From Chloroflexus sp. Y-396-1 (GTDB taxonomy: Bacteria > Chloroflexota > Chloroflexia > Chloroflexales > Chloroflexaceae): a DNA stretch of 64,000 nt. Within the stretch, counting starts at the first letter, position 1, and each line of letters opens with the position of its first letter. Shown piece after piece: positions 34,839 to 35,049 of this stretch. The position numbers and the translations under genes were made by a program. Below the pieces are notes generated by a model. The model did no database searches, was not told the DNA's origin, and saw only the letters and a list, made by a program, of their open reading frames with translations. The stretch spans positions 3,386,633-3,450,632 of the forward strand of contig NZ_KI911784.1 in assembly GCF_000516515.1 (NCBI RefSeq), in the 5' to 3' direction.

Positions 34839-35049
34839 CAATACTGAGTGCACTGCAAAAACTCACCACGGAGCACACAGAGTACACAGAGCGTGTAAGG
34901 TTTATGAATAAGTTTTTGGCCATTGGGCGCATGGAAGAAAAATGTGCACAACCCCATTTTCAATGAAGGATAAAATTATCTTTAGTCTCTGTGATCTCCG
35001 TGGTCTCTGTGGGGGAAAGATCACCTTTTTGCAGTGGAGTCAATACTGA
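34839..35049. mobile_element. MITE-like element with terminal inverted repeats and 9-bp target duplication
   Basis: A 193-base core (34848-35040) is flanked by an exact 9-base direct repeat CAATACTGA (34839-34847 and 35041-35049). The ends carry the inverted repeat CACTGCAAAAA (34851-34861) / TTTTTGCAGTG (35026-35036). A second, longer imperfect inverted pair inside is rich in CCACGGAG and CACAGAG words (about 34866-34890 against 34985-35012). It encodes no protein. This is the structure of a non-autonomous transposable element moved by a transposase elsewhere. It sits between the beta-helix gene and the promoter of the winged-helix gene. Confidence 0.75.

Follow-up and report, generated by a model that had tools for sequence, protein, structure and literature searches.

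Within a 64,000-nucleotide stretch of the genome of Chloroflexus sp. Y-396-1, referred to here as the window, an exact direct repeat of CAATACTGA (34839-34847 and 35041-35049, starts 202 bp apart) encloses a palindrome rich in CACGGAG words. Is this arrangement a mobile element, where would such an element end, which targets would it enter and which enzyme would have moved it? A preliminary description had proposed a MITE whose transposase generates 9-bp target duplications. The evidence below leads us to regard the element, with considerable confidence, as a MITE that is not autonomous and owes its movement to a DDE transposase of IS1182-like type.

Anatomy of the window copy

As first described, the exact 9-mer brackets a CACGGAG-rich palindrome with inverted ends. 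The inverted CACTGCAAAAA occupies 34851-34861 and 35026-35036, and further inwards lie two imperfect inverted arms with a complementarity of 77%: CCACGGAGCACACAGAGTACACAGAG on the plus strand (34866-34891), composed of CACGGAG and CACAGAG words, and CTCTGTGATCTCCGTGGTCTCTGTGG on the minus strand (34987-35012), which pairs with the left arm by complementarity and in the predicted fold. The strand from 34846 to 35042 folds into a long hairpin of -67.2 kcal/mol, 4.4 standard deviations beyond 200 shuffles (z -4.4).

At a minimum length of 80 aa, a single 82-aa open reading frame overlaps the window copy, which contains no transposase gene. This frame (34718-34966) enters the element, whose words it translates as TTEHTEYTE, and is probably not a gene. 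A search of 34500-35500 against Rfam found nothing at an E-value of 1 or lower.

Copies in the genome and beyond

Compared with the window's own genome (G000; 4,890,986 bases in one contig), the 211-bp stretch produced 77 match rows, of which 38, the copy in the window counted, were full-length, beginning no later than query base 8 and ending no earlier than base 203. Most extend from query base 7 to 204-208, and the common unit therefore falls short of the full interval enclosed by the 9-mer. The copies share a 16-bp terminal consensus, GA(G/C)T(G/C)CACTGCAAAAA, and the TIR pattern GANTNCACTGCAAAAA, at two or fewer mismatches, has 152 sites in this genome as opposed to 19 for the reversed control; distinct elements are 119-222 bp long. 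The sharing of ends among genomic copies, evident in both the sequence matches and the TIR search, joins copy number and target duplication in upholding the proposal of a transposable unit of the MITE type.

The TIRs of the window copy are likewise 16 bp, GAGTGCACTGCAAAAA at 34846-34861 (plus strand) and, in reverse complement, GACTCCACTGCAAAAA at 35026-35041 (minus strand). With ends of this length, and with boundaries set by the copies in the genome, the whole element comprises the 196 bp from 34846 to 35041, and the target duplication is the inner 6 bp, AATACT (34840-34845 on the left, 35042-35047 on the right), not 9 bp.

Two tandem arrays of the MITE interior were also observed in this genome. 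In L050 (G000:C1:1244108-1245108), about 166 bp of this interior recur within a single pair of ends, with AAAGGT flanking the array on either side. The second is L350 (G000:C1:2591521-2592277), whose right end was not found by our script.

Beyond this genome, the 211-bp stretch had no DNA match at E 1e-5 in 40 further members of the family, seven of which belong to the same genus. Exact GASTSCACTGCAAAAA is present in 10 of 400 genomes of the phylum, the reversed control being present in two, at one site each; these ten are the window's own genome, three of the five listed genomes of genus g23 and six of family f13. When the species collection was scanned for GASTCCACTGCAAAAAGG, at least 120 stretches were identified, among which, judging by eye from their titles, 112 belong to Chloroflexota, six to Saprospirales or Bacteroidetes, and one each to Desulfovibrio and Paenibacillus, the last lying within a long open frame. 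A Chloroflexus MAG carries these ends at two loci (L172 and L244), and no stretches with GASTSCACTGCAAAAAGG were found in viral contigs.

Target duplication and target preference

Duplication length was assessed on elements defined by the shortest pair per end, two or fewer mismatches per TIR and the removal of duplicates. This filter gave 49 elements in the window's genome and, among stretches from other genomes, 58 when applied to 80 of 120 and 76 when applied to all 120. An exact 6-bp repeat flanks 26 of the 49 own elements (35 at one mismatch or fewer), compared to a mean of 0.77 and a maximum of 4 in 1000 trials with re-dealt right flanks. The other-genome set, drawn from the at least 120 stretches, has exact 6-bp repeats in 32 of 76 elements and repeats with one mismatch or fewer in 49, compared to a shuffled mean of 0.68 and maximum of 4. 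A looser tally, which includes spurious and nested pairings, counts 69 candidate pairs in the window's genome, 29 of them with exact repeats, and 113 elsewhere, 35 of them with exact repeats. Even with one mismatch allowed, 14 own copies lack a 6-bp repeat; four of these have an exact repeat of 7 bp and two one of 5 bp. Other flush exact repeats in the 49 are three of 3 bp, and none of 4 or 8 bp. In own and other elements alike, 6 bp is the rule and 7 bp occasional.

The duplicated bases are themselves constrained. Among the 26 exact duplications in the window's genome, position 1 is A in all and position 6 is T in 25, while the base before is C in 16 and the base after is G in 12; among the 32 from other genomes, the first base is A in 29 and the last is T in 29. 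Taken together, duplication counts and flanking bases define a target (C)A-NNNN-T(G), palindromic but short, of which 6 bp are duplicated.

A MITE whose transposase makes 9-bp duplications would explain why an exact 9-mer brackets the window copy, but a flush exact 9-bp repeat was found in none of the 49 own elements and none of the 76 from the at least 120 stretches, and we regard this reading as extremely improbable. At the window site, the C of the 9-mer is supplied once by the last base of the element and once by the flank, and its GA once by the first bases of the element and once by the flank. Among the 26 exact copies of the window's genome, the full C...GA look-alike occurs once, at the window copy, and among the 32 others it likewise occurs once. 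The agreement at the outer C and GA arose by chance, with some help from the target preference, and it is in duplication length that the preliminary description needs correction. In the mechanism we propose, the transposase would recognise the 16-bp consensus ends and insert the element at a short (C)A-NNNN-T(G) target, duplicating the 6 bp A-NNNN-T; a window target of AATACT, with C before it and GA after it, would then imitate a 9-bp repeat.

Empty sites

One copy in the genome, with the duplication AAGGAT, is nested inside another with the duplication AATAAT (L052). Once the inner copy and one AAGGAT are removed, the remaining sequence aligns over its full length with an ordinary copy, L011, in which AAGGAT occurs once. 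This nesting provides an empty site within the genome. At the window locus itself, the gene upstream of the element has matches in all seven same-genus genomes, and the downstream gene is located elsewhere or unmatched. The two neighbours are not adjacent in the same-genus loci examined, and no sequence in L104-L114 matched the joined window flanks across their junction. A relative of the gene 3' of the element (35129-35719) is present elsewhere in the window's genome, at L111 (G000:C1:4781215-4781804), with a DNA identity of 79% that extends to about 80 bp upstream.

Complete transposons and a candidate transposase

A transposase gene lies immediately inside the end at L222, a 900-bp stretch, and at loci situated at contig ends. 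A search for this transposase in 152 genomes of one family returned matches in 19, several of them weak. Four complete transposons that share these ends and carry an exact 6-bp duplication were recovered, all from other Chloroflexota, outside the window's genome: L294 (1807 bp, duplication ACATAT), L311 (1816 bp, ACCCCT), L312 (1872 bp, AGAAAA) and L259 (1807 bp, AATAAT), both ends of which are perfect copies of GACTCCACTGCAAAAA, the right TIR of the window element. L297 is a further full-length transposon whose right flank is cut off. The left end of L294 and the right end of the window element are identical in 22 of 23 bases; apart from these roughly 23 bp at a single end, nothing alike was seen between MITE interiors and transposons. 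A hybrid, L237, located on the same contig as L300 and L313, joins the left part of the transposon to a right end of CACGAAG words.

Transposase proteins that match IS1182 best are 572-580 aa long. Those of L294, L311 and L312 have the IS1182 model NF033551 as their best model (E 8e-36 to 2e-30) at 106-124 bits, below the NCBI cut-off of 270, and the transposon is thus only IS1182-like. All three full-length proteins scanned (L294, L311, L312) exceed the cut-off of Pfam DDE_Tnp_1_6 (PF13751).

The expectation that the ends would lead to full-length transposons held for other bacteria, where there are four, and not for the window's genome, in which TIR, protein and model searches found no autonomous element with these ends. 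The L222 protein, which matched in two of 20 genomes searched, had no match in the window's genome or in G191, G352 and G357, and the IS1182 model had only six weak matches in the window's genome (E about 1e-4). Lacking such a transposase, the copies in this genome appear orphaned, and an orphaned MITE needs no autonomous partner in the same genome. In a same-genus genome, G006, two fragments of 47 and 33 residues, 45% identical, are located behind a left end with two mismatches and represent a decayed relative. We infer that the transposase described here, or one closely akin to it, mobilised the MITE copies of the window's genome, which it would have entered by horizontal transfer and from which it would later have been lost; those copies would now be immobile.

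Two other transposase types were considered as parents. A broken IS1634-like gene with internal stops (G000:C1:1250839-1252317) lies about 6 kb from the L050 array and could be taken as a remnant of an IS1634-type parent. Against this, 16 IS1634 loci from seven of ten genomes, with flanks seen to at most 1.5 kb, had no good facing TIR pair, and even at four mismatches in both ends pairs occurred at L120 only; such a parent is scarcely credible and was rejected.

An IS110 parent seems very improbable too, despite four loci in G191 (L161-L164; G191:C1:1476800-1479100, 1870700-1873000, 960400-962600 and 86800-89000) at which TIR elements roughly 1.3 kb long contain an IS110 transposase. At the one locus scanned, L163, the transposase matches the IS110 model NF033542 at E 3.9e-58. 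In all four, however, the IS110 unit sits within a MITE word at a CT core, and the MITE halves vary among the loci whereas the IS110 is nearly identical. IS110 elements are not known to have such TIRs or 6-bp duplications. We accordingly rejected IS110 as the parent, as an insertion within the MITE. The non-coding end of the IS110 folds as a large stem-loop that includes CTGCGCC and CGCCG, stretches resembling both target halves, and insertion into the MITE guided by a bridge RNA would fit these features.

CACGGAG words and GxxExxY genes

A pair of CACNGAG-type words is present in 50 of 52 distinct TIR elements of the window's genome and in none after mononucleotide shuffling. Among the TIR elements from the at least 120 other-genome stretches, 53 of 76 have the pair and 23, some from Bacteroidetes, are without it by the pattern used. 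None of four long transposons (L294, L311, L312, L297) has it, and under the IS1182-like mechanism the word palindrome would be cargo, absent from complete transposons.

Similar words accompany GxxExxY (PF13366) genes. Our sample comprised 30 loci out of 41 match rows, reduced to 26 by the omission of L146, L149, L158 and L159, where the GxxExxY frame was not seen at the expected place; the omitted L146 does carry words, and L134 has no room downstream. Inverted words bracket the gene on both sides at 12 of the 26 loci and occur on at least one side at 15, compared to two of 306 control windows. The sole PF13366 match in the window's own genome, L131 (G000:C1:4041888-4042235), lies between repeated blocks of CACAGAG words.

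Might the word palindrome and the GxxExxY genes then form the mobile or functional unit, with the TIRs a secondary shell? The bracketing of these genes and the frequency of words in TIR elements, set against their absence from the long transposons, speak for this view. On the other hand, target duplications are located at the TIRs and not at the words, nearly a third of the other TIR elements (the 23 above) are without the pair, and no GxxExxY gene among the 30 loci is surrounded by a TIR pair at two or fewer mismatches. We judge this view improbable, and GxxExxY cassettes as the complete form of the element were rejected on the last of these grounds. TIR pairs at three to four mismatches per side, found at nine GxxExxY loci, look like chance; at L135, one TIR-like site is located about 1.3 kb from the gene.

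Returning to the IS1182-like MITE, we read the element as composed of two modules, a word palindrome that originated elsewhere and ends that belong to an IS1182-like transposase. A bolder idea, which we think unlikely, is that the CACNGAG-word palindrome is a portable module, serving as cargo of IS1182-like MITEs, as a bracket of GxxExxY (PDDEXK) genes and as a landing site for RNA-guided IS110, and that GxxExxY proteins could use its words as their recognition site. If so, widespread CACGGAG sequences would be the footprint of a nuclease system, imitated or exploited by MITEs.

Relation to known systems

In the open-licence full-text literature, no paper on this MITE family was among the matches listed. 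The present analysis describes the structure of a CACGGAG-rich repeat family of many Chloroflexota genomes together with the rule of its insertion (6 bp, A-NNNN-T), names a candidate enzyme for it and ties similar words to GxxExxY genes of unknown function. These genes resemble the element in having, at 12 of 26 loci, inverted CACNGAG-type words on both sides, but differ in that the PDDEXK_3 loci carry a gene and have no TIR of the MITE family around them. BrickBuilt of Porphyromonas gingivalis, as described in PMC4596501, is likewise a MITE of intergenic regions in which tandem units are enclosed by unique ends, comparable to the array L050, although its unit is 23 nt whereas here about 166 bp of the MITE interior recur. 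A further likeness is to the IS1182 family, which shares a single DDE transposase with NF033551 as best model and 16-bp ends. ISPse1, a member, is tabulated in PMC3281130 with the values 16/16 and 4, which we read as the lengths of inverted repeat and duplication, and palindromes are given as targets of some members in PMC5678879. The scores below the family cut-off and the regular 6-bp A-NNNN-T duplication set the present transposons apart. The element is one of a known kind, a MITE, with a corrected duplication length and a well-supported candidate transposase.
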